Of a DNA stretch of 43,393 bases, positions 2,690 to 39,581 are shown piece by piece (within the stretch, counting starts at the first letter, position 1; the number at the start of each line of letters is the position of its first letter). A program made the position numbers and the translations under genes. The DNA lies in the IMG/VR virus record IMGVR_UViG_3300021963_000237, positions 1-43,393 of that record. The stretch is one strand, 5' to 3'. The notes under the pieces were generated by a model that was given only the letters and a program-made list of their open reading frames with translations, was not told where the DNA came from and made no database searches. The stretch comes from a virus.

Positions 2690-3799
2690 TTATGATTTAG
2701 TGTCACCCTTAACCCAGAAAGTTGTACTCAATGGTGGTGAAGATGGTTGTGAGTACAACTCGTTCATCCACAATATTCTGTATGTTCCAGCAGGTATTGC
2801 ACATCCACCAGGGACTACAACGTTTACTGCGGCGTTTGTTGCGTCAGGTACTCCGTCGTTGATAACAGATGTAGAACATGCACTACCAAATCCAACGTCA
2901 ACTGTCATATTATTCATAGAACCACCAACACCCGCTAATGGTATCCAAACAGTATACGTGTATTGAATTGCCGGATTTACTAAAGAAACATCGGTTTGAA
3001 TACTACCAAATGTATATTGGTTTTGAGCACATCCATAAGAATCAACGCCAGAACCTGAAGATTGTCTTATTGGACCATTTAAACTTGATACATTAGTTAT
3101 AAAGTTACCGACAGCTCCTGTCCAACCTGAGAATTGTGCATAAATTGCCATATCAGCAGCATAATTTGGACCTGCAGGAGTACCTGTGTTACCCCATCCA
3201 AAGAACGATGTCGCACCAGCATTAAACATATATGTACCTAAATCATTTAATGATGTACTATCTTGAGGTTCAGGGAATAAATAAGCACTAAATGCCGCAG
3301 AGCTCGGTGTTGGAGTATTAGTTGGGGTAAGAGTTGGTGTTGGGCTAAGAGTTGGGGTAAGAGTTGGTGTTGGAGTATTAGTTGGAGTCTCAGTTGGTGT
3401 AGGCGTATTTGTAGGTGTCGCACTTGGACTTAATCCAGGTGTTGGTGTTATAGTTGGTGTGATTGATGGTGTTGGAGTATTAGTTGGAGTCTCAGTTGGT
3501 GTTGGGGTATTTGTTGGTGTTGGAGTTTGAGTTACATTTGTTGGTGTAATACTTGGCGTTGGCGTTGGAGTTGGAGTACCACATTCAATAGTTATAACAA
3601 CTCCATTTAACATTTGAGTTCTTGTTTGTGCAGAATAATAAATTGATGAATCCAAATAAACATTGAATGGACCCAAAGCATTTGAGTTAGTTGTTAATCT
3701 GACAATATATGTTGAACATCCTGTTACCGTAAGTTGCTGTTCAATTTCATTATTACAACCCACAGCATTATTGGTAACAGTTATATTATGTGTAGCCAT
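2690..3799 (-). CDS. Virion/adhesin protein with Pro-Thr linker
   Basis: A 369-residue protein of unknown exact function. Residues 1-74 form a small N-terminal domain with three cysteines. Residues 75-168 are a low-complexity linker of TPTPT, TNTPTPT and TETPT units. Residues 170-369 form a globular C-terminal domain rich in Gly, Asn, Ser and aromatic residues, with no transmembrane segment. The same linker type occurs in the SprB-repeat protein two genes upstream, so both probably use it as an extended stalk between a virion anchor and an outward domain. I found no match to a named family. Its place between the SprB-repeat protein and the collagen-like fibre suggests a fibre or receptor-binding role, which is inference. 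The stop is TAA and the start ATG has no Shine-Dalgarno sequence. Confidence 0.8.
3300..3577 (-). repeat. Pro-Thr coding repeat with 35-bp direct repeats
   Basis: A low-complexity tract (plus strand rich in GGTGTTGG and GTTGGAGT) encodes the Pro-Thr linker. Near-perfect 35-bp direct repeats lie at 3366-3400 and 3468-3502, 102 bases apart (34 codons), so recombination would change linker length without breaking the frame. Confidence 0.85.
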
Positions 3800-4195: not shown

Positions 4196-7100
4196 TTAAA
4201 GCGAACCACATATTTCATATGTTGCAGTACCGTTAATTACATATATAGTGTTTGTTGGTGAATACACATAAGGAGCTGAAATTCCATCACTTAATATTTG
4301 TGTTGAAACTCCTGTTGTTGGATTTATACTATATAACCCACCATCAACATTTGTTTGGTACCTACTTACATAAACTTTTCCATTAGCATAATTGAACTCC
4401 GCAGACCTTAGACTTGTGTAATTAAATACACCTGAAATCAATGCAGTAGAAACTACAGTATTAGTTGAACAGTTTATTTTATTTATTGTTATTACCGTAG
4501 GACTTACATATGAAATAGCATATATCATATTATTTATTATGTCTAAAGCTAAAACAAGGTTTCCACTTGTCGGTAATGTTGTATCAAGCACCAAATTATT
4601 ACCAACGCAATTATAAATTGATGTTGGTGTGTATAATTTATTGTTATTTGGATTATAAACAAAACTTGAATTTAACCCAGGGAGAGATGTTATTGTTGTT
4701 GCATAAGCATTTGTTACTCCATCAATAATAGAAACTTCACTTTGACTTAAAGATGAATTATTTGAAAAAACATAAATCTTATTTAACACAGAATTATGTA
4801 TAATATCACCACGACCAGTTGGTGTTGGTAACGCTATTGTTGGTATTGTTGTTGTGGTTGTTGTACCACCAATTAAATCTCTAATTAAAATTGAATTCGG
4901 ATAATTACCACTCCAACTATATAATTTTTCGTTTATTGGGTTATACCCCAATAATAACGCATTTGTTGATGGCCATGTAAATGTTGTTGATGTTGATGTA
5001 CTATTCGGTGTAAATGATATAACATTACCGCTAGTTCCTAAAACATACATTTTATTACTAATTGGACTATATACAATACCCTTTCTACCTACAGCGGTGT
5101 ATCCATTAGTAATTGGTAAAACATTTTTGATTTGGTCTGAACAAGATGTGGTTGAGCTAGGCGTATTAGTTATTGTAGGCGTATTAGTTATTGTAGGCGT
5201 TACAGTTTTGGTTGGAGTAATACTCGGTGTGATTGTATTTGTTGGAGTTATTGATGGTGTTGGGGCAATTGTTGGTGTAATTGTAGGTGTTGGTGTTATT
5301 GTAGGTGTTGGTGTAGGTAATTCACAAGATAAACACATTATATCGTATACAATAGTTAACTCAACTACTATTTCTTGACCATTTAGTGTTAAATCTCCTG
5401 GGTCAGTTGTTACTGTTATTTGATTACTTAATGAATTAAAAGTAACACTTCCAACACCAGGTATTGTTAATAGTAAATCTTTAACAACATCGTAATAAAG
5501 GTTATCACTTGGAGCAGAAACCAATGTAGTTCCAGTAAAGAAATTTTGACTTGTGGTTAATCCCATAGGATTAACAGACACTTTTACACCAAATACCGCA
5601 GAAATTAAATCACAATCAACTTTATCATTGGTTAAATCATTAAACCCTTCATTCAACATTTGAAGTAATCCATATTTAGTTTGTGATTGAATACTGAATT
5701 GTTCAGCACCCATAACATAAGTTTGATATGATATATATTGAGCGTCACAATCTATATTTGTAGTTTGACTTAATGAACATCCAATTGAATCGACAACCGT
5801 TAAACTGTATGTTCCAGCAGTTAATCCACTTATTTGTATTTGTTGTGGATTACTCGGGACATTACCTGACCAATTGAAATTAAATGGTGGTGTACCCGTT
5901 GAAATAAGAGCCGTTAGTGTTCCATCTGAACCGTTACCACATGAAGTACTATACAATGTAAAATCTAATGGGTTGCTTTCACTCACATAAACTTGCGTTG
6001 TTTGAGTACAACCTGTTGCATCTGTAACAGTAACAGTATGTTGACCCGCAGAAACATTTGTAAATGTAACTGCAGACAATGTTGTATTAAAAACATTTTG
6101 AATACCATCTAACGAATAATTGAATGGTGTTTGTCCCCCATTTGTTTTTTCAACATAAACGGTACCATTACTTTGATTACAAGTTGTTCCCGTAATTTCA
6201 GTTGTTATTTCAAAAGAATTTGTTGTAAATAAAGTTATTTCATCCATGTACGAACATCCCGATGAATCTTGAACCACGACTGAGTAAGTTCCCGTTGATA
6301 AATTACTAAATAATTGGGCGGTTTGACTATTAACAATATTAAGGGTGTTACCTCCAGGGTATATTAAAGTGTATGTGTATGGTGAAACACCTCCCGCAAC
6401 TGAAACAGTAATTGAACCGTCAGTACTTGAGCAAGTTGAACTTTGGCTTGATATAGTAACCGATGCAATTCCAAGTGGTGTTAATAATGTAGTGCTAACA
6501 ACTATATTACAAAAAGCTGAATCTGTAACTGATATTGAATAATCACCCGCAGATAACCCTGAAATTGACCATGTCTGACTGTATTGAATTTGTACATCAC
6601 CTGTTGAAGCGGAATAGTAATAAGGTGCGGTACCACCTGTTATTTGAAGAGTCAACACTCCGTCGGAAGAAAAACAAGTTGGTTGTACTGCAGTAAATGT
6701 ACCAAATCCAAGAACATTAACATCAGTAACTACTCCCGTTTGGGTTTGAGAACAACCCAAACTATCTGTGACAACGACAGAATATGTACCTGATGTTAGT
6801 CCAGTAATACTACTCGTAGTGAAACCATTACTCCATAGATACGTATAAGGTGCAACACCCGTTTGACCTGTTACAATTATCTTACCAATAGGTGTACCCC
6901 CACAACTTGAATTTGGTACAACGTAAAGACCGTAATTAAAAGGGTTACTATCTTCAATAATAAAATCGGAAGTTTTACCACTACATCCACCTAAATCTTC
7001 CGCAACCATATAATATGTTCCCGCAGTCAAGTTACCAAAAACTACGTTTGATGTGTTAGTATTTGCCGAAGTAATATATGTATCATCCGCAAAATATAAA

Positions 7101-7459
7101 TAAAAATTTGTTGATGAAAAATTTGATGTGGAAGTACCAGTAACTGAACCATTATCCAATGCACAGGTGGTATTTTGAATTCCGATTACACTTGCACACA
7201 CTCCTGAAGAAACAGGTATGTTAATATAAAATTGTAGGTTTGTTGGTATCGTACTATCATTAACATTTACACCGTATGTATCAGCACTTAATGAAGTTCT
7301 AATAGATGGGTTAGTAGTAACAACGTCAGCACCTAAATTAGGCACAACCCACTGTACGGTATAAGGTGGAGTACCTCCAGTTAGATATAATTCGATTACA
7401 CCAGAATTTGTATTCTGACAATCTCCCGTTAAAATTATATTATATTGAAATGCAGACAT
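4196..7459 (-). CDS. Phage adhesin: SprB-type repeats, PT linker, beta-propeller
   Basis: A 1087-residue protein in four parts. Residues 1-570 hold about seven repeats of 75-85 residues resembling SprB repeats, each ending in forms of GL.AGTYSV.V.DS.GC (for example LTSGTYSVVVTDSLGC). Residues 570-705 form an unassigned domain. Residues 710-770 are a TPTPTITP linker. Residues 775-1087 contain seven blade-like repeats with cores such as YNPNNNKLY, FNYANGKVYV and YSPTNTIYV, typical of YVTN-type seven-bladed propellers. SprB is the gliding adhesin of Flavobacterium, and these repeats are common in Bacteroidetes surface proteins. A phage receptor-binding adhesin is the likely role; sugar or protein binding by the propeller is inference. 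The start lies two bases from the preceding stop. Confidence 0.85.
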   Translation of the reverse strand: MSAFQYNIILTGDCQNTNSGVIELYLTGGTPPYTVQWVVPNLGADVVTTNPSIRTSLSADTYGVNVNDSTIPTNLQFYINIPVSSGVCASVIGIQNTTCALDNGSVTGTSTSNFSSTNFYLYFADDTYITSANTNTSNVVFGNLTAGTYYMVAEDLGGCSGKTSDFIIEDSNPFNYGLYVVPNSSCGGTPIGKIIVTGQTGVAPYTYLWSNGFTTSSITGLTSGTYSVVVTDSLGCSQTQTGVVTDVNVLGFGTFTAVQPTCFSSDGVLTLQITGGTAPYYYSASTGDVQIQYSQTWSISGLSAGDYSISVTDSAFCNIVVSTTLLTPLGIASVTISSQSSTCSSTDGSITVSVAGGVSPYTYTLIYPGGNTLNIVNSQTAQLFSNLSTGTYSVVVQDSSGCSYMDEITLFTTNSFEITTEITGTTCNQSNGTVYVEKTNGGQTPFNYSLDGIQNVFNTTLSAVTFTNVSAGQHTVTVTDATGCTQTTQVYVSESNPLDFTLYSTSCGNGSDGTLTALISTGTPPFNFNWSGNVPSNPQQIQISGLTAGTYSLTVVDSIGCSLSQTTNIDCDAQYISYQTYVMGAEQFSIQSQTKYGLLQMLNEGFNDLTNDKVDCDLISAVFGVKVSVNPMGLTTSQNFFTGTTLVSAPSDNLYYDVVKDLLLTIPGVGSVTFNSLSNQITVTTDPGDLTLNGQEIVVELTIVYDIMCLSCELPTPTPTITPTPTITPTIAPTPSITPTNTITPSITPTKTVTPTITNTPTITNTPSSTTSCSDQIKNVLPITNGYTAVGRKGIVYSPISNKMYVLGTSGNVISFTPNSTSTSTTFTWPSTNALLLGYNPINEKLYSWSGNYPNSILIRDLIGGTTTTTTIPTIALPTPTGRGDIIHNSVLNKIYVFSNNSSLSQSEVSIIDGVTNAYATTITSLPGLNSSFVYNPNNNKLYTPTSIYNCVGNNLVLDTTLPTSGNLVLALDIINNMIYAISYVSPTVITINKINCSTNTVVSTALISGVFNYTSLRSAEFNYANGKVYVSRYQTNVDGGLYSINPTTGVSTQILSDGISAPYVYSPTNTIYVINGTATYEICGSL
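5155..5320 (-). repeat. Pro-Thr coding repeat of the SprB-type adhesin
   Basis: A G/T-rich plus-strand tract of GTTGGTGT and ATTGTAGGTGTT units encodes the TPT linker between the repeat domain and the propeller. The composition matches the tract at 3300-3577, so recombination between the two genes is plausible. Confidence 0.8.
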
Positions 7460-12486: not shown

Positions 12487-13328
12487 TATTTTGGATTAAC
12501 ATATTCATACCATTTTATGGGTATCGAAGCACCCGCTCTGCCCCCTAAACTACTATAATCCGTTTGAGAAGGATTCATACTAAAAACTTGGTAGTTTCTT
12601 TTTTCATAATCCAACTCAACTCTATAATAGAAATATTTGGTACTATCAAAAGTAAACTTATCACCAACAATTGATGATTGTGGCATGTTCATCATTTTAG
12701 TAAAATATCCATTTTTTGCATCGTAGAACTTAGCGGTCATAAAGAAAGTTTTTATGTCTAAAAAGTTTCTTTTTTTCAACCAATAAATGAAAAACCCTTC
12801 TTTATCTCCAACATAATCTAAAACAAAATAAGGTTTTTTAATATTGACTGGAGTTCTTTGCATAATCGCAGGCATTGTTAATCCCTGTTGTGTTGGTATA
12901 ATAATCGTTATGTAATTTGTTTGACGTTTTTCATCTACATTATCATACAAATCCAACTTAAAAAATGAATTTGAAAAATTATTAGTATAATAATATATTT
13001 CATCAGTAGTAAAACCTTCAGAAATATAATTGTTCCTCCAACTGGTTGTTGCACTTAAAGAACCTCCTGAATAAAAATTAAATTCATATTGAATATCAGT
13101 AATTTCTATTAGATTATCTGTTAATGGGTTTTGTAATATAAGAGGTGCGTGAGCAAATCTATCGACTTCAAAGTCACCGTATGTACCCGTAACTTTCTTA
13201 ATAACCTCAGTTTCGTATTCATCAATACTTTGGTCCAAACCTAAATAATCCCAAGTAAGTTCTATTGGTATTACCAATTCTTTATTGGCAAATCCATCTT
13301 TTCTTATTTCTACTTTATTCACATTCAT
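12486..13328 (-). CDS. Hypothetical phage structural protein
   Basis: A 280-residue protein of unknown family, rich in Tyr, Phe, Asn and Lys, with predicted beta character and no membrane segment. The N-terminal MNVNKVEIRKDGFANKEL is charged. Its ATG lies inside the end of the 564-residue gene (14-base overlap) and its TAA shares a base with the next ATG, so it is embedded in a coupled chain of baseplate genes. Such chains usually encode proteins of one complex. No function is claimed beyond likely virion structure. Confidence 0.72.
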   Translation of the reverse strand: MNVNKVEIRKDGFANKELVIPIELTWDYLGLDQSIDEYETEVIKKVTGTYGDFEVDRFAHAPLILQNPLTDNLIEITDIQYEFNFYSGGSLSATTSWRNNYISEGFTTDEIYYYTNNFSNSFFKLDLYDNVDEKRQTNYITIIIPTQQGLTMPAIMQRTPVNIKKPYFVLDYVGDKEGFFIYWLKKRNFLDIKTFFMTAKFYDAKNGYFTKMMNMPQSSIVGDKFTFDSTKYFYYRVELDYEKRNYQVFSMNPSQTDYSSLGGRAGASIPIKWYEYVNPK

Positions 13329-15009
13329 CTATCAATGGTTTAACTGGGAAAGGCACTCCAAGTAAATCAGAGTTGTAGTTTATTCCTTCAGGAATCAATC
13401 TAAATTGAGACTCCTTAAACGGATAATGAGCAAAGTTTAAAAACGGATAAGTAACTCCTCTATTCAAATTATCCTTAAATCCATAAGTATATAAATCTCT
13501 CCATCTGAATTGTTGGTCAGAATTTGAGAAATAAGCGTAGGTTGGTACCCCATCAACAAATTGTATGTCTCCCGTTTCAATATAATCAGAAAAAACTCTA
13601 ATTGTCATAGGTACATGAGGCTCATAATAAAATCCTGATGCATTGGTTGTTGGATTTTGTGTTGTTTGAAAAATATTCTGATTATATTTTAATTTATGAT
13701 AATAAGGTGAAACAACCCTTTCTAATTGTTCATAATCATTCCACTCACAGAAATCACCATCAATTGTATCTCCAGACATTAAGTCTTGATTATAATAAAA
13801 AGTTCTTGTAACTCCGTTAGTTAAAGTATAATTTGAAGTTTGAATATTTGTATTCGAATTTAAGTTTGTTGAGTCCCACCAAGTATTTGATGTTTTAGTT
13901 AAATTAAATTCCCATCCTTGCTTTAAACCAACACCATTGGTCGGATAATTAAAATACCCTGTGTATCCTTTATTGATTATTGTTAAGTACAATTCACTTA
14001 TTGGTCTTTTTTGATTATCAACCAATCCAGCAAGATTTATATCATAATTTACGGTTACATTATAAGAATTACTACTTGTCTTCTGAGAAACTCTTGAAAT
14101 ATTATTAGGAGTTATTGAACTGTATTCAAATTTTTTTTCTTCAACAAAAACATTTTTTTCAAAACCGTTTTTAGTCATAATACAGTCGTTTACGTTTGTC
14201 AAAATTTTATGTTCTCTAACATAATATTTTGACCTTGTTTCTAAGATAGTATCAGGATTTATTACTCTTTTTAATGTTCCCGTCGTTTTGTTTGCAAATG
14301 TTGTTCCCGTGTATCCAATATTATAAATGTTGAACACATATATATCACTCCCAAACTGTCCGTTACCCAATGAGTATACTTGAAACAAGTTTGTATTGTC
14401 ATATGTTAATGATAACTCAACATATTCACCAACGGATAGTCCGTGTGGGCAAATACATTGAAACGCAATAACATTACTTCCATTTTGTAACGCATTGTTT
14501 ATATAAAAAGGAATTCCGTCAGAAGCCTTCCAATTTAAACTTGTACCATCTAAAGCGTAAAATAATTGTTTATTATAATTGTTTTGATGAGCATAACTTA
14601 CATAATATGTCCAATTGTACGTGTATGCACTTTTAGAACGATAAGTAATATGTTGGTCACTAACATTAGGTCTATAAAAGTCAAATTCATAATACTGTGG
14701 AAATCCCTTCCAAATTCCATTTTGTTTTGAAGATATTGGGTCAACATAATAAAGTAAATTTCTAAATGGAACATATTGTGTTGTCCCCGTATAAGTGTTT
14801 GAATATAGATAGTTTATTTTAAATGTTGGTCTGAAAATTGTACATTTTTGTCTTTCATCTTCATATAACTGAGCTAAACTAATACTTTGACTCCTATTGT
14901 ATTCTGTAATCTGTTGACTTTGTTCTTCTAAAGACAAAGAAATATCTTGGTCAACAAAAGGTGCTGACTTATATCGTAAACTACTAGGTATGATTGTATA
15001 CTTATTCAT
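13315..15009 (-). CDS. Hypothetical phage structural protein
   Basis: A 564-residue protein without recognised domain. It is very rich in Tyr, Asn, Ser and Thr, with a short acidic/Gln segment near residues 24-50 (SLEEQSQQITEYNRSQS) and beta-type alternation elsewhere. It ends in acidic ECE. There is no signal peptide or membrane segment. The start overlaps the TAA of the 1611-residue gene by one base, and the 3' end overlaps the next gene by 14 bases. Composition and context fit a baseplate or tail component, but nothing identifies which. Confidence 0.72.
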   Translation of the reverse strand: MNKYTIIPSSLRYKSAPFVDQDISLSLEEQSQQITEYNRSQSISLAQLYEDERQKCTIFRPTFKINYLYSNTYTGTTQYVPFRNLLYYVDPISSKQNGIWKGFPQYYEFDFYRPNVSDQHITYRSKSAYTYNWTYYVSYAHQNNYNKQLFYALDGTSLNWKASDGIPFYINNALQNGSNVIAFQCICPHGLSVGEYVELSLTYDNTNLFQVYSLGNGQFGSDIYVFNIYNIGYTGTTFANKTTGTLKRVINPDTILETRSKYYVREHKILTNVNDCIMTKNGFEKNVFVEEKKFEYSSITPNNISRVSQKTSSNSYNVTVNYDINLAGLVDNQKRPISELYLTIINKGYTGYFNYPTNGVGLKQGWEFNLTKTSNTWWDSTNLNSNTNIQTSNYTLTNGVTRTFYYNQDLMSGDTIDGDFCEWNDYEQLERVVSPYYHKLKYNQNIFQTTQNPTTNASGFYYEPHVPMTIRVFSDYIETGDIQFVDGVPTYAYFSNSDQQFRWRDLYTYGFKDNLNRGVTYPFLNFAHYPFKESQFRLIPEGINYNSDLLGVPFPVKPLIDECE

Positions 15010-18000
15010 TATTCAATTACTGAGTATTTTGTTTTAAATAGGTCTAAAGCTGTTTCACCTTTAACTGTTCCAAAATAAAAATGGAATGGTGCTCCAACTA
15101 TAAATCTATTACCTGTCGCGTTGAAGGTGTTACTTGCCTCGTATTGACCATTTGTTTTAACAGCAAAAATATACCCCCTTGCATATAAATCACTAATACT
15201 TGACGTTGTGGGTCTGAAATAATTTGGGGTACCTAAAGATGTTCTATCAAGTGATTGATATCTTTTGTTTTGAACAATATCATTTTGTTTTGTTGCCCAG
15301 TTATTATATTGACTACCAAAAATTAAATTGTTGGTGTTTTGTATCAACTCCCATTGATAGTTTGGCACCACTTGTGATTTAATACCATACGGATACGGGT
15401 AGTTAGCACTATTATCAGGTGTCCTAAAATTTATTCTACCAGGTGTTAAATAATCTTTCATCTGAATATTTTGAGTGGTTGATGAAAACCAAACCGCCAT
15501 GACAGGATTATTCTGAGTTCCAAGGATAGTTGTTGGAGTATTTGTGGAGGTTGTCGCATAAAATTCAGGAGAAAAGTTAATATTACCAACTTCACTGTTT
15601 ATTGAACATAATTGAACAAAATCACCATCAACTCTTGCTCTAGGTGTGAAAAATCCAAAAATACCAGTACCTCCTCCATAAGGTCTCGAAAACAAAATAC
15701 CGATTGCATCATTTGCAAAACTTATTATTTGTGTTATAAATCCCGCATCTACCATTCTTGAAATAACAAAAAGATTTACTAAATCGGAAGTATCCCCATA
15801 ACTTGTTGGATTCAACTCAGGAAGAATATATGCTTTAGTTGAAGGGTCAAAAACTATTTCTGAATATACGATGTCTTTAAACCCTAAATTTATTAGTGTT
15901 GTTGGGAACATTAAGTTGTATTCGTTAACCGAAGTATTATCAGGCTGTCTTCTACCAATAAACTTATTTGTATTGATGTTGTAAGGACTACTCCTGAAAT
16001 AAAAATTAGTTGTACTTTTGTCGAAATAAACAAGGTCTCTAGGGATTACAGGGTCTTCAGGTTTGTTTTGGGTATCATAAAAAGTATCTACTTGTATTGG
16101 AAACATATATAATGAACCATTAACCCAATTGTTTGTAAATGTTTGTGAAAGTACTCCTCTACAAAGTCCATAGATAAATCTAAATCTATATCCCCATTCA
16201 CCCCAAATTTTCCAATCATCTATAAATCCTAATAAATTTAGTGGGTCATGGAACAAAATATAACAACCATTTTTCACAAAGTTATATCCTGTACCTAAAG
16301 GGTCATTACATGGTGTTTTTACTTTGAAAGTACTCCCAAAACCTTCATAACAATCCAATGGTACCATACCTGGACAACTAAAACTAGCCAAAACCTCTCC
16401 TGCGTTTGGTAAACCATTCAAGTCAGGACTAACTTGGGAAGCTCCCGCGCCGTAACCAGCATTTTGTCCAACACTATTGGTTACTATAAAATACATTCCA
16501 AAATTTAAATTTTGTTGTAATATACTTGGGTTTTGACTCCAAGTATTACCATCCAATTTGTCGGAAGTAGGTAACCTATCGTTTCTCAAAACATTATTAA
16601 CTTGAGTAGGTATACTCATATTAAGTGAAGGGTAGAAAGCTAATGTAGAATATCTATGGTTAAATGGTGCCCACCCACTAGCAATTGCATTACCATTCAC
16701 ATACGGTGTTATTTCCATGAAACCTAAACCTGAGACATCTTCAGTGTTATCGTATTTTGAACTATCTGTAGTTGTACTCCAATAACCATTAGCAGATGTT
16801 GATATCAATTTATTACCACTAACTGTTAAAAATGAAGGAGGTGGTGAAGGTATATTGTTTCTATCTATCGAACCATAATATCCAACATTGTTTGTTGTAT
16901 ATGATGAAAATTGTAATCCGATTGTAGTACTACCAACAATACCGGGTTTAAAAAAATATGATTGGTAAAAAATATCATTCTGATTACTAAATTGTTGAAC
17001 ACTAATTGGACTACTTGGTGGTAACGCTTGAATTGGTATGTTTAATCTTGTTTCTGCTTGTACTATCACATCGTCTTCATTTGGATATCCTAATAATTTA
17101 CCAATTCCGTACTTATTTTGAAAAACGGGTGAATAAGGGTCAACACCTCTTTGTAATATCAAAATAACTTGATTTGAATAATCTTGAAGTTGTTCTAAAG
17201 GATTTATAGTTAAAAAAGGAGTTGGTGTCCAAAAAGTACTAAAAAATTCTTGCCATAAATCGATAGTTGTTGGTGTGTTTATTATATTTGGAAAAGTTTG
17301 TGTCGAACCTGTATTCCAAATCAAGGCAGCTTCAGAAATAGTTATTGCCGTCACAACTTGAAAATATTCAATGTCTGCCGGATATATGTTTTGAGTAATT
17401 GTTGAACCCGAAGGAAGATTATAACTTACTGGAGTGGCATTCGTTGTTTGCGTTGACGCGTAGGTTATATTAACAATTGAAGGTCCTGTATTATATGAAG
17501 TTCCACTAATACCATATGTAATACCAGTACTTGTTGACCCCGTATACAAATAGTTTTTATCTTTACTACTTGTAGGTGAAACAAATGTGATTAAATCTCC
17601 TGCACTATAATTTGCAATACTTGTACTAGCAAGAACTGTGATGGTATTATCTAAATGGTATTTACCCACATTTGAATTTTCCGCAAAAGTAACTTTGATT
17701 TTGTTTGTACCAGTAAAGAAATTACCCCTTTGATTAAAAATGTTTATACGTTCACCTAAAGGTAAACTTTTTGATGACATACCAACATTTCTTCCAAAAG
17801 TATTACTATAATATGTTCTGTTGGTAAAGGGTACTTTATAATAAATTTGTGTTTTATCACCTGCAAATCCAGCAGTTGCAATAGATGCCATGGTTGCAAA
17901 CGTATCAACATCATCAGTATTTATTGGTGGTTGTAGGTTTGAGTAATATTTTTGATAACTATCAAAATAACTTGACGGATATGAAACATAACTCAAATAA

Positions 18001-19844
18001 CCTGAAGCGGATGCTTCATTCGGGTTTTTAGGCGTTTGTGAATTTGGGCCAACACTGGCATCAACACTACATTCACAAGTATCACAGTCAGGATAAGTTA
18101 ACATTGTCAATGACATATCTGTGTTTACTTCATCACAATCTATACCCAACTCACTACAAATCCACCCAAAAGGACAAATGTCAAAAAACCCTACGTCAAG
18201 ACATAGTCCACATAACGCACATAAAAAAGCAATTACTAAAGAATATAAAAATAAAACAACACGTGCAATAAAAATTAAAGGTAATCCAATCAATTGGATT
18301 ATTTGAAATAAAAATGAGAATAAAAAATACAACAAATCAAAATTTCTAAATCCTTCGTTTACTGGAAATTTATTTACAGTTGATTCACAAGAATTGTCAT
18401 CGATTTCTTTAATACCAATAAATCTACCTCTAGCACCTTTTTTATATTCATCAATTAACTGTGAAACAGTATAAACCCTATTGAATCCAAATTCATAAAA
18501 AGTGTCTTCACAATCAATAGCTTCGTTTAATTTGGTTAAATAATCAACACCTGTAAACCCATCAGTATACCCACTCCAAGCTAATCCAAAATAATATGAA
18601 CTAGCCAATTTTTTTTTGTTAGAAGGATTAACATTATCATTCAAAGGGTCTAACGTAGAATTTATCCATCCATACTCCTTAACATTAGGAACTAAAAAAT
18701 ATGGTCTTCTAGTTTGTTCTGTCAACGTTGGAGATTGTTGCCATTTTATTTTAAATCTATATTTGGCTTTAGTTGGAATACCAACTGTTGGGTCATTCGA
18801 TAAAACTTTTTCTCCAAACTCATTTGTGATAAAATAATCCAAATTCATAGGTAATTCGGTTAACCACGCACCGTTTCCATCAATAATATTTCCAGATTGT
18901 TCTAACTGATATTGTTCAAGAACAGGGTTACCGTCACTATCTTGGTCGATTGTTTGTCTGATTGCCAATATTTGGCCAGGTCCCGCAACTAACTCACACA
19001 AATTACCCAAATTGTCTTTTGGTTTGTTGTTTTCTCTAACCCTCATATTATCAGGACTACTGAAAATAGACCCCATAAATGTTGATGTTGGTTGGATATC
19101 GATATTTGCGTCATCTCTTAAATCAAAATCAACTCGATTGATGGCGATATCACATAGTTCAGGGTCTCCCCATAATGGTGATACCTCAACTGATTTAACT
19201 ATGTTAAGAATTTGTGGTAACGAATTTAAATCATTTGATGTTCTAAATCTATTACCAGCAACTTGAGCTTCAGTTGCACGCCCCATTCTAATTAAATCTT
19301 GAGGTGTTAAAGAAAACTCCCCAATATCAGATAAATCTACGTCCATAACTAAAGAGTGATTACCTTGCGGTACACCCATAATCATGTAATCACCACTTTC
19401 ATTTGTTCTTGAAGAAAACTTATAATACTTGTCGTAAATTTCAATTGCGGTATTACCCGTTAAAGCATCTAATCTTGTGGGTAATGTACCCGTAGCGGCA
19501 TGTGTTGAATATGATTGTTCGTATGGTAACAGGTTATATCTAAACCCGTCTTCGTTTCTATCACTTGGAGATTTGTATGGATATATACTTGATATTAGTG
19601 GATTTGATTGGTCAACTAATTCGATAGGAATAAAGATTGCAACTCTTGCATTTGGTATACCAAATCCGTTGTTTGCAGTTACTCTACCCACTACTACACC
19701 GTATTCCGCACAACTTTTTGTGTAGACATCCTCTTGTTGTAATGTTAATGATAATACTTCTAAAAACTCAAACTGTTGGTCCAGTTGAACATTTATTGTT
19801 TTGTTTACCCCTAACTCAGTCCTAATTCTATATGATTGACTCAT
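15009..19844 (-). CDS. Giant structural protein with CarboxypepD-reg-like domain and membrane segment
   Basis: A 1611-residue protein. Residues about 44-175 resemble a carboxypeptidase regulatory-like Ig fold (GVVVGRVTANNGFGIPNARV early, then SGDYMIMGVPQGNHSLVM), common in Bacteroidetes envelope proteins. Residues about 499-545 are strongly hydrophobic, long enough for two membrane helices (FLFSFLFQIIQLIGLPLIFI, then VVLFLYSLVIAFL). A Cys-rich stretch follows to about residue 595, with about ten Cys including CALCGLC and CDTCECS. The remaining 1000 residues are Asn/Thr/Tyr-rich and fibre-like. It is the third gene of the wedge operon after gp25 and gp6. A membrane segment in a baseplate-region protein suggests contact with the host membrane during infection, which is inference. 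The gene is intact in one frame. Confidence 0.8.
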   Translation of the reverse strand: MSQSYRIRTELGVNKTINVQLDQQFEFLEVLSLTLQQEDVYTKSCAEYGVVVGRVTANNGFGIPNARVAIFIPIELVDQSNPLISSIYPYKSPSDRNEDGFRYNLLPYEQSYSTHAATGTLPTRLDALTGNTAIEIYDKYYKFSSRTNESGDYMIMGVPQGNHSLVMDVDLSDIGEFSLTPQDLIRMGRATEAQVAGNRFRTSNDLNSLPQILNIVKSVEVSPLWGDPELCDIAINRVDFDLRDDANIDIQPTSTFMGSIFSSPDNMRVRENNKPKDNLGNLCELVAGPGQILAIRQTIDQDSDGNPVLEQYQLEQSGNIIDGNGAWLTELPMNLDYFITNEFGEKVLSNDPTVGIPTKAKYRFKIKWQQSPTLTEQTRRPYFLVPNVKEYGWINSTLDPLNDNVNPSNKKKLASSYYFGLAWSGYTDGFTGVDYLTKLNEAIDCEDTFYEFGFNRVYTVSQLIDEYKKGARGRFIGIKEIDDNSCESTVNKFPVNEGFRNFDLLYFLFSFLFQIIQLIGLPLIFIARVVLFLYSLVIAFLCALCGLCLDVGFFDICPFGWICSELGIDCDEVNTDMSLTMLTYPDCDTCECSVDASVGPNSQTPKNPNEASASGYLSYVSYPSSYFDSYQKYYSNLQPPINTDDVDTFATMASIATAGFAGDKTQIYYKVPFTNRTYYSNTFGRNVGMSSKSLPLGERINIFNQRGNFFTGTNKIKVTFAENSNVGKYHLDNTITVLASTSIANYSAGDLITFVSPTSSKDKNYLYTGSTSTGITYGISGTSYNTGPSIVNITYASTQTTNATPVSYNLPSGSTITQNIYPADIEYFQVVTAITISEAALIWNTGSTQTFPNIINTPTTIDLWQEFFSTFWTPTPFLTINPLEQLQDYSNQVILILQRGVDPYSPVFQNKYGIGKLLGYPNEDDVIVQAETRLNIPIQALPPSSPISVQQFSNQNDIFYQSYFFKPGIVGSTTIGLQFSSYTTNNVGYYGSIDRNNIPSPPPSFLTVSGNKLISTSANGYWSTTTDSSKYDNTEDVSGLGFMEITPYVNGNAIASGWAPFNHRYSTLAFYPSLNMSIPTQVNNVLRNDRLPTSDKLDGNTWSQNPSILQQNLNFGMYFIVTNSVGQNAGYGAGASQVSPDLNGLPNAGEVLASFSCPGMVPLDCYEGFGSTFKVKTPCNDPLGTGYNFVKNGCYILFHDPLNLLGFIDDWKIWGEWGYRFRFIYGLCRGVLSQTFTNNWVNGSLYMFPIQVDTFYDTQNKPEDPVIPRDLVYFDKSTTNFYFRSSPYNINTNKFIGRRQPDNTSVNEYNLMFPTTLINLGFKDIVYSEIVFDPSTKAYILPELNPTSYGDTSDLVNLFVISRMVDAGFITQIISFANDAIGILFSRPYGGGTGIFGFFTPRARVDGDFVQLCSINSEVGNINFSPEFYATTSTNTPTTILGTQNNPVMAVWFSSTTQNIQMKDYLTPGRINFRTPDNSANYPYPYGIKSQVVPNYQWELIQNTNNLIFGSQYNNWATKQNDIVQNKRYQSLDRTSLGTPNYFRPTTSSISDLYARGYIFAVKTNGQYEASNTFNATGNRFIVGAPFHFYFGTVKGETALDLFKTKYSVIE

Positions 19845-19936: not shown

Positions 19937-21775
19937 TTATGAAAAAGTTACTGATTGGAAATTCTTAACCGAGACTCTAATATCTTTATTAGGGTATCTA
20001 ACTTGATATACTTGAGATGGTTGAGCAAATATTGTATCGTCAACAGGACCAATCAGTTTTATTTCAGGATTAGTGTAAATCATAGAAGTTTCAGCAGATG
20101 AATATTGTCCACCAACCTCGTTAAATACTTCCATATTTGCAACAGTTAAAACACCATTTGTATTTTGAATTAAACTTCTAATCTCAGAAAGATATACATT
20201 CTGTCCAAGTTGTCTGATTTGAGGATTAAAGTATGTTGAGATTTTATCAACCACACTAGAAATCACTTGACCTGAGTTCTGAGCAGAATCCAAAACAATA
20301 GAAACATCTAAACTTAAATCAATAACTTCAGCACTGAATATTGAAATGTAATCATTCATCATTCTATAATTTGATAAATAATTTGCAATATTTTGTCTAA
20401 GTGTGTTTGATACGACGTTTGTTAATTTACCTGAAGTATCATACGATAAAATTTGAATTAGAATTTTGTTGTCATTTTCAGTGATTGATACCTTTGCAGG
20501 TGCCCCAAATTGAGCTGGCATGTTTCTAATTAACGATTCGTAATCTTGAACCGTAACTGCTCTTTTTTGTGCCGCAAAATTAAATGAAACATAATTTCTA
20601 ATTTCTTCTAAAGATGGTATACCGGCTCCACCTACTGCAGCAGTTACGTTATTACATCTTAAAGAATTAACTACAGATGAGTTTGTTGTTTCAGATGGTC
20701 CATTAACAAAGAAAGATACAGTTCCGATTTGGTTAATCACATTTGTACCTAAGTTTGTCGCCAATCCACCACCAACTCTATATTGAATAAATAATGTTGA
20801 GTTAGGCGTTAAAGTTGCACCCAAAGATAAGTTGTTTGAATATTTTTGTAATTCTAATGTTGTACCTAAAGTTGTAAATTGATTCAATTGGTCTTGAGCA
20901 GTATTTGTCCCACCACCAAATGTCATCTTTTTAAATCCTTCAGGTGTATACTCAGTGATGAATCTATCTTGTGTTTGAATATATCTACCAACTTTGATAC
21001 CTGGTTGGTCAGAAACTTTTGTAGGGTCTTCAACAAACACTCTGTCTTCTGCTAATGCATCCACTTCATACCATCTATTTTCCAACCCTAAAAATTCAGC
21101 AGTTGTTGGTGTATTTGTATAGTTGGTACCATTTTTTAATAATACACTTGTAATACCCAAAACATTTTTTTCAGGTAAAAATAATTCGAAGAAAGGTTTT
21201 ACATCATTAGCATTTATAACTCTTTTGAATACTTTGGTAATACCGTTTACAACCACTTCTCTTTTTGTAATTGTATAGTTTACCAAAACATTATTGGCAT
21301 TAAAATTAGGTATTTTTAATCTGTTTGGAAATCCCTGAGCATTGTATGGTGACGCAAAGTCAATATCGTAAACGTTTTCAAAAACAATACCAGCACCAAC
21401 TACTTGTGAACCTCTTGTCAATGTTCCGAGATATCTTTCATCTTCCTTGTCTCCAAAAGCAGGAACAGTAATTGAAAAATCAACTAAAGCAACCGAAGGT
21501 CTTTGTCCTGGTAATTTTAAACCATAAGTTCTTGCAATGTTATAAATTGATGACCTTTGTTGGGCATATTGTAATACAGTTTCCTGAATACTTCTGTCAA
21601 TATTATAATGTAAGTTGTCGGCTACCGCAGCATTTAAATCAAGAAATACCGAAAATACCGATGCATCATTGAAATCCTGAATTAAATCAGGATAATATGT
21701 TCTTGTATAATTTAAGAGCTCAGTTCTTATTGACTGATAATCCCTACTGGTATATGATATTCTATTATTTGCCAT
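19937..21775 (-). CDS. 6: Baseplate wedge protein gp6 / baseplate J-like
   Basis: A 612-residue protein that reads as a T4 gp6/P2 gpJ-type wedge subunit, which dimerises around the baseplate ring. The N-terminus ISYTSRDYQSIRTELLNYTRTYYPD and the following FNDASVFSVFLDLNAAVADNLHYNIDRS match the usual gpJ/gp6 opening. The central beta region ends in the TVQDYESLIRNMP segment, typical of the conserved C-terminal part of the family. Length is close to T4 gp6. It starts five bases after the gp25-like stop, the same gp25-gp6 (W-J) order as in many contractile tails. Not odd in composition. The family call is firm. Confidence 0.9.
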   Translation of the reverse strand: MANNRISYTSRDYQSIRTELLNYTRTYYPDLIQDFNDASVFSVFLDLNAAVADNLHYNIDRSIQETVLQYAQQRSSIYNIARTYGLKLPGQRPSVALVDFSITVPAFGDKEDERYLGTLTRGSQVVGAGIVFENVYDIDFASPYNAQGFPNRLKIPNFNANNVLVNYTITKREVVVNGITKVFKRVINANDVKPFFELFLPEKNVLGITSVLLKNGTNYTNTPTTAEFLGLENRWYEVDALAEDRVFVEDPTKVSDQPGIKVGRYIQTQDRFITEYTPEGFKKMTFGGGTNTAQDQLNQFTTLGTTLELQKYSNNLSLGATLTPNSTLFIQYRVGGGLATNLGTNVINQIGTVSFFVNGPSETTNSSVVNSLRCNNVTAAVGGAGIPSLEEIRNYVSFNFAAQKRAVTVQDYESLIRNMPAQFGAPAKVSITENDNKILIQILSYDTSGKLTNVVSNTLRQNIANYLSNYRMMNDYISIFSAEVIDLSLDVSIVLDSAQNSGQVISSVVDKISTYFNPQIRQLGQNVYLSEIRSLIQNTNGVLTVANMEVFNEVGGQYSSAETSMIYTNPEIKLIGPVDDTIFAQPSQVYQVRYPNKDIRVSVKNFQSVTFS

Positions 21776-21780
21776 CTTAT

Positions 21781-22251
21781 TTAAATATTGATAATTACAA
21801 AATCACTTTGACCAAAAGTTGAGCCGTTGGTTGAGTAATCTATTCTTATTTTTGCAGTGTATTCTGAGGTTCCCTTACCTGGAAATCGATAGATTGATGA
21901 TTCACTAGTTCCAATTAAATTTTGTCCTGTAGCTATATCAACTTCTTCTTTTGGGTCGGCTGGTGTTATACTTAAACTATTGACTAATAAATTTGGCATA
22001 AAATTTTCAATAGCATCTCTGATATCTGATTCAATAGCATTAAATGTTAATCCATCAAATGGTTCAAAAAGAAACTCATATAATCTTGTTCCAAATTCTG
22101 GTAAAAAGTATCTCGAACCTTTTCTTGTCAATAATAAGTGAATCAAGTCAGCCTTAATTTCTTGCGCTTGGAGTTCCGTTAATTCTAAATAATCACCTCT
22201 TCTAGAATCTCTGAAGGGAAAATTTATACCATAAGTAATACCATTTGCCAT
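21781..22251 (-). CDS. 25: Baseplate wedge protein gp25-like
   Basis: A 156-residue member of the GPW/gp25 family, a wedge subunit next to gp6 that helps start sheath assembly. The signature is visible: residues about 22-70 read ELTELQAQEIKADLIHLLL, then TRKGSRYFLPEFGTRLYEFLFEP, the usual 'T..GSR...P.FG..L..LLFEP' core. A C-terminal extension of about 45 residues goes beyond the short P2 gpW form. It is first in the wedge operon, downstream of the nrdA terminator and a TATTTATA motif. The ATG at 22249-22251 follows an AT-rich leader without Shine-Dalgarno sequence. Confidence 0.92.
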   Translation of the reverse strand: MANGITYGINFPFRDSRRGDYLELTELQAQEIKADLIHLLLTRKGSRYFLPEFGTRLYEFLFEPFDGLTFNAIESDIRDAIENFMPNLLVNSLSITPADPKEEVDIATGQNLIGTSESSIYRFPGKGTSEYTAKIRIDYSTNGSTFGQSDFVIINI

Positions 22252-31606: not shown

Positions 31607-34600
31607 TTATAAAGTGAATGGAGGTCCAGTCACTGTTTGAATTAACACTTGACCATTTGGTGGTGAAGTATATCCATATGGTGTATATTTCACAACCAAT
31701 TTAAAAGTTCCTTTACCTGAGATTTGACAAAGGTTAGTGTATTTGGTATCTATACCGCCTTCTACGTTAGCCGACGCTCTATTTCCATTCGCATCTTCAA
31801 AATATCTATCAGCATAATTTTGTTCACTAAATGATGATATATTAAATTGGAAAGTAATATATCCACTGTTATCAGGTTTTTTTACGTTAAAATATTGCCA
31901 TCCGTTTCCTTGTAATGTAGGACTTTCACCTAAATAAGTTATTGACGATGGAAGAGGGGCAAATGTTGGTGTTGTTGAAGGTGTTGGTGTAAAGTTAAAA
32001 TTAAATGTTTGTTGAACGTTTTGAGGGTTTTTAACTTTATCAGTAGGAACTGCAGTAACAGTAAATTTAATTTTAACAGTTTGACTAGAAGTAACAGGAG
32101 TTGTTTTAAATTCATCAATTGGGTTAGTTATTAACATACTTTGAACATTTGCATATGTTATAGTAAACGTATTACTTGAAACATAACTTGATGTTTTTGT
32201 GTTTACACTTCTGTTTAATGTTTCAGTTTTAACATTATTAACAACATTATTATCATAAACAGATATTTCCATTTCAACTTCTTGTTGTAATGTCCAAGTA
32301 TTAAGTGCTGCCGCTTGTGGATTTACAGAAACCGTTAATTGTTGTGTAACCCCACCTGTAGTTGTTTGTGTTTGACCGTTTAAGGTCACAGGTCCTGTTT
32401 GTTGTGGTTGTGTATTTGTGTTAGTAGAATTACTTGGCACTGGTGTAACCTGAGCCGGATTATACGTAAAGTTAACCACACTCGCACTATCACCATGAGT
32501 ACCCAATACAATTATAGAATTGTTTTGTGCGACCGTTGTATTACTAAATGGAACAATAACACTTATATTGAATGGATTGTTTATTGTAATACCCGTAGTT
32601 GTTGTTACTCCATTTATTGTAACGCCAGTTACTTGGTCTAAATCTTTACCAATTATTGATAATATTGTACCACTAATACCCGATAAAGGTGAGAATGAAG
32701 TCACTGTTGGTGGTGCACATACAATAGGTACAGTAGTTGTATTCAAATTATTTGTAGGTGTTGTAGTACCTGCATAAGTTTTTGCAATTTTCTCTTTTTG
32801 TTTTTTATCTTCTTTTCTGGCTTGGGTTGTTGAGGCAACATTTAATCCAGCAGGTCCCGCAGATTTAAATCCTTCTTTAAAAGTATTATCCAATTTTGTA
32901 AATTCACTAACATGGGCGTCGTAATAACTTTCTGAAACTTTTTCGTACGCACCATCCCAATAACAAACATAAAATTTAGTTATTCCCATACCATTACCAC
33001 TTACCCTACCAAAAACTCTTTCGACATTAGGCGATAATCTTGAAATCATAAAATCAAAAAACCTACCAATATCATCAAAGTTTGCAACAGGTAATGATAA
33101 CTTTTTGTTTGCGGATGTGTTTACATTAACACACGAAAATGTTTTTGGTGTAAAAAATCCTCTACCTGTACCATAATTATTAGTTAAAGGTAGATTAACA
33201 AAGTTGTTGTTATACCCATAAAATACATTTTCTTGGTATACCTGCGCATAACAAATCAAATAGATTAAAACTTGTAAATCAGGGTCATTTGTTTTCTTCT
33301 CTAATTCAGTAACAAATTGTTGAGGTGTTAATGAAACTGTTGTTGATTTTTTAGCATCACCCCAATCTATGTAAGCCGAGTTAAGTTTTTCACTACAAGA
33401 ATTTTCTGCAGCAGCGCTATTATCTCCAACTTGACTAACGTATTTAGCCGCATCAACATCTGTTGTAGGTTTAATGTCAACTTCAGTTTTTTTACTTTTG
33501 ATAATCGCTTCAATTTTAGTCAATAAATTTTGATTTATACTTTGTAAATAATTTTCGATTGCAGGTAAGTCATAAATTCCTTGTCTTGTACCCGTAAATG
33601 AGGTTCTAAAATTACCTTGCGTTATTGCATGGTCTACTTGTGTTATCAGATATGGACCATTAAACATTGGAACGTGTCGTAAATTAAAATACATTGTTGG
33701 TTGTAACAAAGCATTACCTAAACATTCTATTTGACATTGGTAACTTCTTTGTTTATACAAATTGTACAAACTAACATTTTGAGTTGCAGTATTCCTACCA
33801 TTAGCTTGGTCAATCATATTTATTTGAGTTTGAATTGACTCTGACGTGGCTTTACCTCCATCCATTGAAACATTCAATGAATAAAATATATTTTGATTTC
33901 TAATACCAACGTCAACATTAAATCCAACACATTTGTTTGATACCGCCCAGTCTTTTTTACCTACAATATTTTCAATTAAAGGGTTATCAGACGCTCTTCT
34001 CAATTCAAACGCATCGTCTCTAAACCTTGAATTACCTTTTGGTAAATCTAAATGAGTTGATGGTTGTCCCGCATAAAAACAAATCATTTTGGGACCTGAA
34101 TTTCTATAATCCACATTTAAGAATGTACCCCACATGTTATCAGCAAAATCTAAATTTCCTTCAGTTTGTGGGATTGTTGTCCCATCAACATCTTGAATAT
34201 TATAAAAATTAACATAAGCGGGTAATGGCATTACATTAAATTTATTTTTGATTAACATACCACTCATGAATGTGAACACACTCATTTCCATGTTTAAATT
34301 GTTTTCTTTAAACATGTCTTTTAAATCAAAAATATCAACAACAATTGTATCCCCAATGTTTCTTGAAGCCCTGTCCAAAAACATAACGTCTTCAAATAAT
34401 GTTTTTGAGAGGTAATCAGAACCCGCAACCCATTTATCATTTAACGCCTTAAAAACTTCATAGTTTTCAACTTTACTTTGTTGACCATCAATAGCACTAG
34501 TAATTACTCTCTCAGGTAACTCTTGTTGGTCGGGTAATTCAACTCTAACATTATTCAAAACTTGATTTAAAATGTTGTTCTGTAAAACATCAGTTGTTCC

Positions 34601-37600
34601 CAAATATGTTTCTAATCTATTTTTGAATACATCACTAGATAAGTTTGGTGTATATAACTTTTGAGTTGCATACATTTTTATTATTGGCGATAGTAATACA
34701 ACATTGTTTTCAGTAAACTCAATATTATTATCAATAAAGAAATCGGTTATGTATGAACCATTATTATCATAAACTAAATTTGGTATTGTTGAAAATCCTA
34801 CTTCGGTTTCTAAGGCTAACCAAGCTTTATCATTTTGAGCTTTAGATGTTGCAAGACTTATTGAACCTGAAGCGGATGGTAAACTATTTTTAACATATGG
34901 GTTAAAAACAATTGGGTCCGTAATTGGAAAATTGTTACCTCCTTGAGCTAAATAAGATGCAAATATTCTTCTTTTATATCCCGATGGATTACCATACTTA
35001 AGTATCACATCATACTCCATAAAGGCCTTAATTGTACTCGAAAATAATATAAGTTGTTTTTCACCAATTGTATTAAAATATTGACCTGTGGTTAAAGAAC
35101 TACTTTGTGGTTCAATTTCCATCATAGTAGTAAATAAATTTTGGAAATTCTTAAATAAAGCATTAGGGTCAACAGGTGACTGGTCAATTGGGACATTTAG
35201 TTGAGTTCCCAAATCAATATTACCCACAGGTTTAGAAAAATTTAAAAACTCTTGTTCAAACTTATTTAAAATACTTTTATCAAAAACTGAAAATATTTCT
35301 TCAATTTTTGAGTAATCTCCGTCCATTAACAAATTAAATGCTGATTGTTTTGTTGTACCAGTTTTAATTTTGTTAACATAAGCATCTGGTTGTGGTTTGG
35401 TAATTTGAGAATTATTGAAATAACCAAAGTTTGGTGATGACCAAAGTAATCTAACCGAACCATTATATATTGATGGGTTGTCAATAAAAGGACAAACAGG
35501 TGCATTGGCAACTAAACATTCTGTACTTACTTGGTTTATTTGTGAACCAAAAGATGGTACCACATAATATTTTAAACTGTTTGTATTATTTGTTGGGTTA
35601 CAAAGCGCCCCATCTGTTATCGGCGGTCCGACAACACTTGGTAAAACCACCGACCATGTTTGAATTTTTGAAAAAGTTATTGGTGATGTTAGTGGAAATG
35701 CGATAGTTTGGGCATTTATGTTTGAATCGGTGAAGTTAAAAACTTTAACTCCATTATCAATACTTGATTGAATTTCAGCATCAGTATAGTTTACGTATAA
35801 ATCATAACCATTATAAAAAACATTAAAGTCGTTAATTACTTTTGGATAAAACCCCGTCTGAAGTGAGGTAATATTGTTAGACACATTTTGTAATGTAATT
35901 TTATTCTCACCATCAAATTTAAATGTATATGTTTTTGTATCTGAACTTGTAACTGGGTCAAAGTTTGTTTTGTATTCAAAATTTTTCCAACACGTATCTA
36001 ATATGTCAACATTACTTGTTTTATATGTTTTATATCTGTACCATATTGACCCCATTTTAAGTACCCAAGCATATGGCATCTTATGTATGGCACCATATTT
36101 TTTGAAACAAGATGCAATATAATCTAAGTCACTTGAAGCACCAAAAGTTTTATACTTTTCTTTTAGGGAAGCTAAAGGTAAAGAGTTAATAAAAAGATAC
36201 GCGGCTTGAGTATATGGATATGGGTCTTTTCTTCTCCATTGATAAACACCATTTTGTATTGCATTTATAAAATATGGAGTATTCAACATTGATGTTGTTG
36301 TCTCAACATTAACATTTCTGCTTGGCGATAAATAATTTACGTATCCCTCGGTTGGCACAAAGAAATCAGGGTCTTTTCTTATATCATAAAATGCAGATAA
36401 ATTAGTTACGGTTACTTGATTTGCAGGATTTGAAACTTTCAAATATGAAAAATTTGTAACAGGTCTATTTGTTGTGTAATCATATACACTATTAAAATTA
36501 GAAATTACATCTCTATCCTCAAAAACTGTTAAAACTCTATTTGTATTATATACCGCATTTTTTGCACTATCAACACTATTTGCCATATGGGTTGAAACCC
36601 ATGTTGGGTCAGTAAATGGATAAGTATCAATAACTAACGGTTCATTATTAACACTTTTAACTAATTGTAATAATCCTTCAGTTTTTGTATTTGTTTGAGG
36701 TTCTTTACCCAAATCATTCAAACTTAAAATGTTGAAAGAATTTTGGGTTAAATTTCTAATATATGGCGTTACAAAAAAATCTCTAATATAGTCTTGATAT
36801 GCTCTACCTGTACCCTGATTCGAAATATTTTCCAAAAAAGTTGGGTAGTTTTGTGCAGTAATATTATAATTTTTTAATTTAAGTGTAATATATGGTGAAC
36901 TTACACCTAATCCTGTAACAATATTATTTGTTTCTGCACTAACAATCAATTTGGTAAGTTGTTCTAATTGATTATTATTTGCACGTACAAATCCTGAGTA
37001 ATTTGCACTTAAAAATTGTCTTTCCCAAATTTCATAAAAAAACTTAATCTCTTCTTTGTTTACATACGCAATACCCTCGGATGGATATTCTATAGCATTT
37101 ACATTTATAACATTTGTAGTGTTTTGACTATTGATAGGTGGTTGTACGACAGGTTGGTCAAATTTTTGAGTTAACCCTTTCATGTATTCTTCAACAAATT
37201 CTACTTCAGGCCATTTATTGTATAAAAATCCTTTAGTTAAATTCACTACAGATGGGTCTGCAATATATTTTAATTGGAATCTTCCTTTTTTATCTTCAGG
37301 TGTTTCAACAAAAAATTGAGGCCATGGATATACAGGTATCTGACCGTTTACCAACCCTTGATTTGAAGCTTGAGCGGTTGCACTAATTTTTGTGTCGTCT
37401 AAAGTATCTGTACCTTTTGCTGAAGATGGGTTGTCTAATATTGCACTTTTTCTTATAGGGTCGTATCTTACATTCCATGCATTTGTATGTACTTCATCAA
37501 GTAATCGAATGAATCCTTCTGCGGATGCCATGATTACCGCACAAATGTTTCTGACCGTTGGTTTAAACCCAATTCCAGTTGAAGAGTTTTCAATTTTTTT

Positions 37601-39268: not shown

Positions 39269-39581
39269 AATAATAAAAATAATTGTCTAACGACGCTTTA
39301 TAATCCTGTAAAGAAGGTAGGAGAGGAAAAGGAATAATCAATACCGCACCATCATAAATGTAATTTTCCAAACCACCAAATTGAGGGTTAGCTTGTAAAA
39401 TCAACCAACCAAAATATGGTGAGTTATAAAACTCCTGAGATACAATATCTAACCTGCTTCTACCAACTTTGTATACATATGTTTGGTCAGTAGTTTTTTG
39501 AGGTAATTGCACAAAGGGTACTACAGTCTGTTCACCGTTAATTAAAAAATCACTATATCTATTCCAATATTGATATGCCAT
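39258..39581 (-). CDS. Small LysM-like baseplate protein (gp53-like candidate)
   Basis: A 107-residue protein. The centre reads YKVGRSRLDIVSQEFYNSPYFGWLILQANPQ, followed by IYDGAVLIIPFPL. This is the LysM pattern of phage tail proteins, where a 'G..LD.IA...YG....W..I...N' segment and a final 'G..L.IP' strand are usual; T4 gp53 has a comparable LysM-like unit. In contractile tails such proteins link tube, hub and wedge and do not need to bind peptidoglycan. Its ATG overlaps the preceding TAA by one base and its end overlaps the hub gene by 11, so these three are tightly coupled. The LysM call is fair, gp53 equivalence tentative. Confidence 0.75.
   Translation of the reverse strand: MAYQYWNRYSDFLINGEQTVVPFVQLPQKTTDQTYVYKVGRSRLDIVSQEFYNSPYFGWLILQANPQFGGLENYIYDGAVLIIPFPLLPSLQDYKASLDNYFYYYGR

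Follow-up and report, generated by a model that had tools for sequence, protein, structure and literature searches.

A conserved hydrophobic stretch and cysteine motif in a giant baseplate-cluster protein of uncultured T4-like phages

The nearest precedents for tail-tip helices that insert into membranes come from two described systems, and in both the function was put forward as a proposal. In phage lambda, the hydrophobic helices H1 and H2 of the tail-tip protein gpI are proposed to insert in the outer membrane on triggering (PMC11101478). In RcGTA, helices of the iris/penetration domain of the megatron (Rcc01698), a multi-domain baseplate protein of ~1300 residues, are proposed to form an outer-membrane pore, and four cysteines of the hub protein next to the megatron coordinate an iron-sulfur cluster (PMC7296036). 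Little is understood of the way in which contractile phages keep hold of the outer membrane and seal it during tube passage. Here, we analyze a 1611-residue protein encoded in IMG/VR record IMGVR_UViG_3300021963_000237, a viral record of 43.4 kb (43,393 nucleotides; the window), in which a long hydrophobic stretch and flanking cysteines lie within a baseplate gene cluster.

We liken this protein to gpI and the megatron by description, not homology. The gpI protein occupies the plug position of a non-contractile tail; RcGTA is also non-contractile, the megatron helices are N-terminal, and the cysteine site belongs to a different protein. In gene order, the closest counterpart is gp7 of T4, the baseplate wedge initiator (1032 residues), which is also very large and whose gene likewise follows gene 6 directly, with the next wedge gene behind it. 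The gp7 protein is a monomer present in six copies in the wedge (PMC3004832).

Conservation of the hydrophobic stretch and its cysteines

Relatives of the 1611-residue protein were collected from IMG/VR, where most queries found from 441 to at least 592 relatives and the best 80 of each scan were listed. Dereplication by shared 5-mers left 90 near members, including the window protein, and 45 distant members; a joint alignment combined 45 near and 45 distant members (90 sequences). The open reading frame was confirmed, and the features of main concern are as follows.

15009–19844, minus strand: 1611-residue baseplate-cluster protein bearing the hydrophobic stretch, at the gene-7 position (open reading frame; gene order in relatives)
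18336–18389, minus strand: conserved entry, Cys486 and NKFPVN[ED]GFRNFD, residues 486–503 (Cys486 in 90/90 near members and 100% of the joint alignment)
18210–18338, minus strand: hydrophobic helix, residues 503–545, with polar stripe S510/Q514/Q517/R528 (hydropathy, helical periodicity, AlphaFold2)
18135–18221, minus strand: variable cysteine patch, residues 542–570, CALCGLC... (member sequences; other branches have longer hydrophobic stretches there)
18069–18095, minus strand: exit motif CxxCxC, here YPDCDTCEC, residues 584–592 (cysteine conservation)
16161–16376, minus strand: second conserved cysteine set, residues 1157–1228, with C1157, C1165, C1179, C1194, and C1228 (99–100% in the joint alignment)

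The only long hydrophobic stretch of the protein lies at about residues 501–551, where Kyte-Doolittle means over 19 residues peak at 2.72 and R528 is the sole charge between D503 and D550. Its best 45-residue hydropathy mean, 2.30, was reached by none of 20,000 residue shuffles; the 19-residue peak alone, reached by 70 of the 20,000, is weaker evidence. Wimley-White segment counts were not used for topology, as many segments were also picked up elsewhere in the protein. The stretch was kept in all 90 near and all 45 distant members, and the 45-residue mean had a median of 2.08 and a minimum of 1.28 in 313 family sequences that were not dereplicated. Identity between near and distant members was 24% in residues 503–546, compared to 57% in residues 1–500, and no gaps occurred through about residue 539. 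This combination of low identity, universal hydrophobicity, and absence of gaps indicates that hydrophobicity rather than sequence is conserved. In other branches, the stretch is enlarged to 127–147 residues between the flanking anchors by added Gly/Ala-rich hydrophobic segments, which by their sequences look like those of polytopic membrane domains. Such a longer insert, with at least 127 residues between anchors, was present in 52 of the 90 near members; seven others have a short version (71–91 residues) with only the three cysteines of CxxCxC. In three relatives (L028, L030, and L031), a second very hydrophobic segment occurs in the C-terminal half, near residues 1040–1080 (19-residue mean of 2.73 at residue 1057 in L028).

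The stretch has helical character. Mean hydropathy along it shows a 100-degree period, with permutation p values in the joint alignment of 0.006 (residues 506–531) and <0.001 (506–537) and in the near set alone of 0.06 and 0.02, respectively; conservation, unlike hydropathy, shows no helical period in the alignment of the stretch. Position 528 is histidine in 85 of 90 near members and arginine in the window protein, and S510, Q514, Q517, and H528 would lie on one face if the helix is continuous. An AlphaFold2 model of residues 1–850 (mean pLDDT 57) contains one 42-residue helix at 504–545 (pLDDT about 73–81), where a reading of the sequence alone had expected a pair of membrane helices; the pair is not supported, and the stretch may be a single helix or a hairpin. 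The same reading took the remainder of the protein for a soluble fiber, which gives way in the models to globular, beta-rich domains.

Nine cysteines, not the ten or so first counted, occur within 51 residues at and after the end of the helix (542, 545, 548, 557, 563, 570, 587, 590, and 592), a density above that of all 2,000 shuffles (maximum 7). The observation as a whole is real, conserved, and not a product of chance. Cys486, Cys587, and Cys590 are invariant in the joint alignment and Cys592 is present in 97%; a Y...C..C motif was found in 45 of 45 distant members. By contrast, within the near set Cys542, 545, 563, and 570 occur in only 24–31 members and Cys548 and Cys557 in two; one branch has a cysteine-rich segment between the anchors, and most members instead have the longer hydrophobic insert. 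The sequences CALCGLC (542–548) and CDTCECS (587–593) are both present as first read, and both had been suggested to bind metal. For CDTCECS, together with Cys486, this idea is plausible. As a conserved metal motif CALCGLC was rejected, given that Cys542 is present in 31 of 90 members, Cys545 in 25, and Cys548 in 2; of the two sequences, CDTCECS is the motif of the family, whereas CALCGLC is a variant confined to one part of it. Elsewhere in the protein, Cys45, 231, 283, and 445 and the five cysteines at 1157–1228 are 98–100% conserved in the joint alignment. NKFPVN[ED]GFRNFD ... YPxCxxCxC provides a marker motif for these phages.

A candidate membrane-inserting protein at the wedge position

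The gene occupies the spot where T4 has gene 7, directly after homologs of gp25 and gp6.

21781–22251, minus strand: gp25-like baseplate wedge protein (phrog_261, E 3.1e-19; Pfam GPW_gp25)
19937–21775, minus strand: gp6-like baseplate wedge protein, directly upstream of the 1611-residue protein (phrog_219, E 5.5e-25; Pfam Baseplate_J)
13315–15009, minus strand: 564-residue downstream partner gene (one-base overlap with the 1611-residue gene, TAATG)

A gp6 homolog was directly upstream of the family gene in 87 of 89 near and 44 of 44 distant relatives, and the 564-residue gene was downstream at every locus with enough flank (67/67 near and 37/37 distant). The order of the gp6, giant-protein, and 564-residue genes is fixed across the family. 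Across relatives, mean column identity is 91% for the gp6-like protein (19937–21775, minus strand) and only 49% for the adjoining family protein. Family searches with the 564-residue protein gave no meaningful match.

Known baseplate proteins differ from this one in several respects. No sequence similarity to gp7 was detected when two family alignments were each compared with it using hhalign (probability 0.2%, E about 0.35), gp7 was absent among the fold matches listed for the 1611-residue protein, half of whose model is weak, and a search for homology to T4 gp10 gave no signal. The GenBank record of gp7 describes its C-terminus as a predicted integral membrane domain; this hydrophobic segment is a single short one of 19 residues, the best 45-residue mean in gp7 is 0.73 compared to 2.30 here, and the cysteine motif flanking the stretch was found only in the 1611-residue family. 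Ten T4 proteins (gene 53 to wac) and the baseplate clusters of Flavobacterium phage immuto and Microcystis phage Mel-JY01 had best 45-residue means of 1.09 or less. The initial view that T4-type baseplates lack such segments therefore stands for segments of this length, and fails for the 19-residue segment of gp7. Immuto and Mel-JY01 are the nearest named relatives of the gp6-like protein (26–27% identity), and their baseplate clusters also encode a giant protein (1265–1336 residues), but one without the hydrophobic stretch and with no detectable similarity to the 1611-residue protein.

In the explanation that we consider best, and to which we give about an even chance, the giant protein is a structural baseplate protein at the wedge (gene-7) position with a dedicated membrane-inserting domain that acts on the host envelope. 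We propose the wedge role solely because of gene position and, since similarity to gp7 was sought and not found, do not call the protein gp7. In T4 terms, it would be a wedge protein, probably with six copies per virion. The long hydrophobic helix would be shielded in the virion until the baseplate rearrangement that starts contraction exposed it, and the copies would then enter the host envelope, with the outer membrane beneath the baseplate as the most likely target. There, they could either anchor the baseplate or surround the incoming tube with a collar or opening. Together with the CxxCxC motif after the helix, Cys486 would probably constitute one metal or disulfide site, holding both ends of the inserted segment together. 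Insertion in the host membrane during DNA delivery had been suggested from the sequence at the outset; it remains the leading reading, and no homolog without the stretch turned up in either set, but the AlphaFold2 model is not good enough to dismiss a helix buried inside a soluble core. A more specific version, which we regard as doubtful, is a membrane-penetration device in the wedge ring, in which His/Gln-striped helices, each clamped at the base by a cysteine metal site, would form an outer-membrane anchor or pore around the tail tube in a large lineage of uncultured, contractile T4-like phages.

Several points weigh against a membrane-inserting domain. No link to gp7 by sequence or fold was found, and the modeled single helix, at 42 residues, exceeds the length of a simple single span. 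The model is poor around the helix (pLDDT <50 at 447–503 and 578–614) and, because these flanks are poorly modeled, shows the helix as neither buried nor free. In addition, gp7, with its annotated predicted membrane domain, is a baseplate protein solved in assembled form, and such predictions can therefore mislead. This precedent, that a TM-like segment can belong to an assembled baseplate protein, also counts toward the main rival explanation, which we judge somewhat unlikely: a soluble structural helix that packs against gp6-like helices or its own copies inside the baseplate core and does not come into contact with lipid. One continuous helix in the AlphaFold2 model and a 100-degree hydropathy period with a polar stripe that includes a nearly invariant histidine would suit packing inside a protein bundle, and the extreme conservation of the neighboring gp6-like protein is in keeping with this idea. 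A run of about 43 residues that carries one charge, with a 45-residue mean well above that of any other baseplate protein tested, is harder to reconcile with a buried helix, and most branches add hydrophobic segments, which one would not usually expect where a helix sits at a fixed soluble interface.

The universal conservation of the stretch would serve equally well for a domain that tethers the growing baseplate to the host inner membrane during tail building and has no role in entry: such a domain, being hydrophobic and made in the cytoplasm, could insert there, and a link between T4 tail assembly and the membrane has been described. We think such an assembly anchor improbable, as finished tails have to come off the membrane and the domain is embedded in a 1611-residue protein, flanked on either side by large conserved domains. 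The conservation of Cys486, 587, 590, and 592 (97–100%) and the four-cysteine iron-sulfur cluster of the RcGTA hub protein (PMC7296036) could also be taken to mean that a zinc or iron-sulfur site is the main conserved function, with the hydrophobic part merely packing around it. Three to four cysteines need no 40–130 hydrophobic residues, however, and the hydrophobic part is itself conserved, independently of them, making this explanation very improbable. A membrane-inserting domain, if correct, would supply a function for a common protein, found in hundreds of phage contigs and not covered by PHROGs, Pfam, or INPHARED. The T4 wedge proteins tested carry no such stretch. The hydrophobic domain, conserved in all members examined, is a concrete, testable candidate for the means by which contractile tails grip and seal the outer membrane.

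Family, probable host, and other features of the window

The giant protein belongs to a large uncharacterized family that, judging from the relatives' contigs, occurs in uncultured T4-like phages with contractile tails. Scans of 50,697 named phage records (INPHARED; tblastn with five different members) revealed none of its members, and searches of PHROGs, NCBIfam, and PDB sequence profiles gave no meaningful match; TRPV4 rows (E 1–9) in the profile search were dismissed as reflecting hydrophobic composition. Two scans of bacterial and archaeal genome contigs found no family member and thus no prophage or host link. The one good match in BFVD, A0A8S5LA66 of Myoviridae sp. ctPuP5 (E 1.9e-24, 32% identity over 599 columns), is itself uncharacterized. 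Long contigs of relatives, rather than the window, provided matches to the Gp23 capsid protein (three of four contigs, E about 1e-62) and to the sheath (four of four, E about 1e-7, below Pfam's cut-off), which indicate that these phages are contractile-tailed and T4-like. The sheath matches, in L239–L242, lie within open frames of about 1070 residues; the sheath protein of T4 has 659 residues, well below this length.

A host among the Bacteroidota is probable: none of 20 genes has a Shine-Dalgarno-like motif, SprB repeats are present in a neighboring protein, and the best ribonucleotide reductase matches are to Cellulophaga and Tenacibaculum phages. The repeats, which are those of Flavobacterium gliding adhesins, occur five times (Pfam PF13573, E 4.1e-22) in a 1087-residue protein (4196–7459, minus strand) that also has Hoc-like matches and is a possible adhesin taken from the host.

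Two further domains of the giant protein were modeled.

19092–19718, minus strand: beta-sandwich of CnaB / carboxypeptidase-regulatory / transthyretin type, residues 43–251 (VIA-align; Pfam PF13620)
16479–18011, minus strand: confidently modeled domain, residues 612–1122 (pLDDT mostly 75–97)

An N-terminal carboxypeptidase-regulatory-like domain had been suggested from the sequence, and its fold was supported at residues 43–251 (VIA-align Z 8–9.8, mostly 2–4 Å over 75–100 residues; moderate model confidence). Matches to PF13620 were weak, occurring in 19 of 26 members (best E 3.6e-4), and the window protein scored 14.5 bits, under the Pfam cut-off of 32.3 bits. Residues 612–1122, searched as part of a longer model and not alone, had no fold match in PDB or BFVD (all Foldseek rows covering them at probability ≤0.03 and TM ≤0.16; best VIA-align Z 2.3) and are a possible new fold. 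A fold search of residues 593–1611 gave only noise, including meaningless botulinum/tetanus rows (probability 0.01–0.02, TM ≤0.09).

Beyond the gp6-like and gp25-like genes, the window encodes a ribonucleotide reductase, a DnaB-like helicase, a UvsX-like recombinase, and a single-strand binding protein. Within positions 31607–43219 (minus strand), open frames of 2553 residues (31607–39268) and 1212 residues in the same neighborhood lack matches, for the former in Pfam and PHROGs at significant levels, and a 107-residue protein adjoining the 2553-residue frame has a weak baseplate-wedge match (phrog_7145, E 0.006). Toward the other end, a 369-residue protein (2690–3799, minus strand) contains a Thr/Pro-rich repeat tract, and ~1.8 kb of imperfect 9/18/27/36-bp tandem repeats (1–1800) run off the left edge and on the minus strand would encode a collagen-like Gly-Thr-Ser repeat protein.

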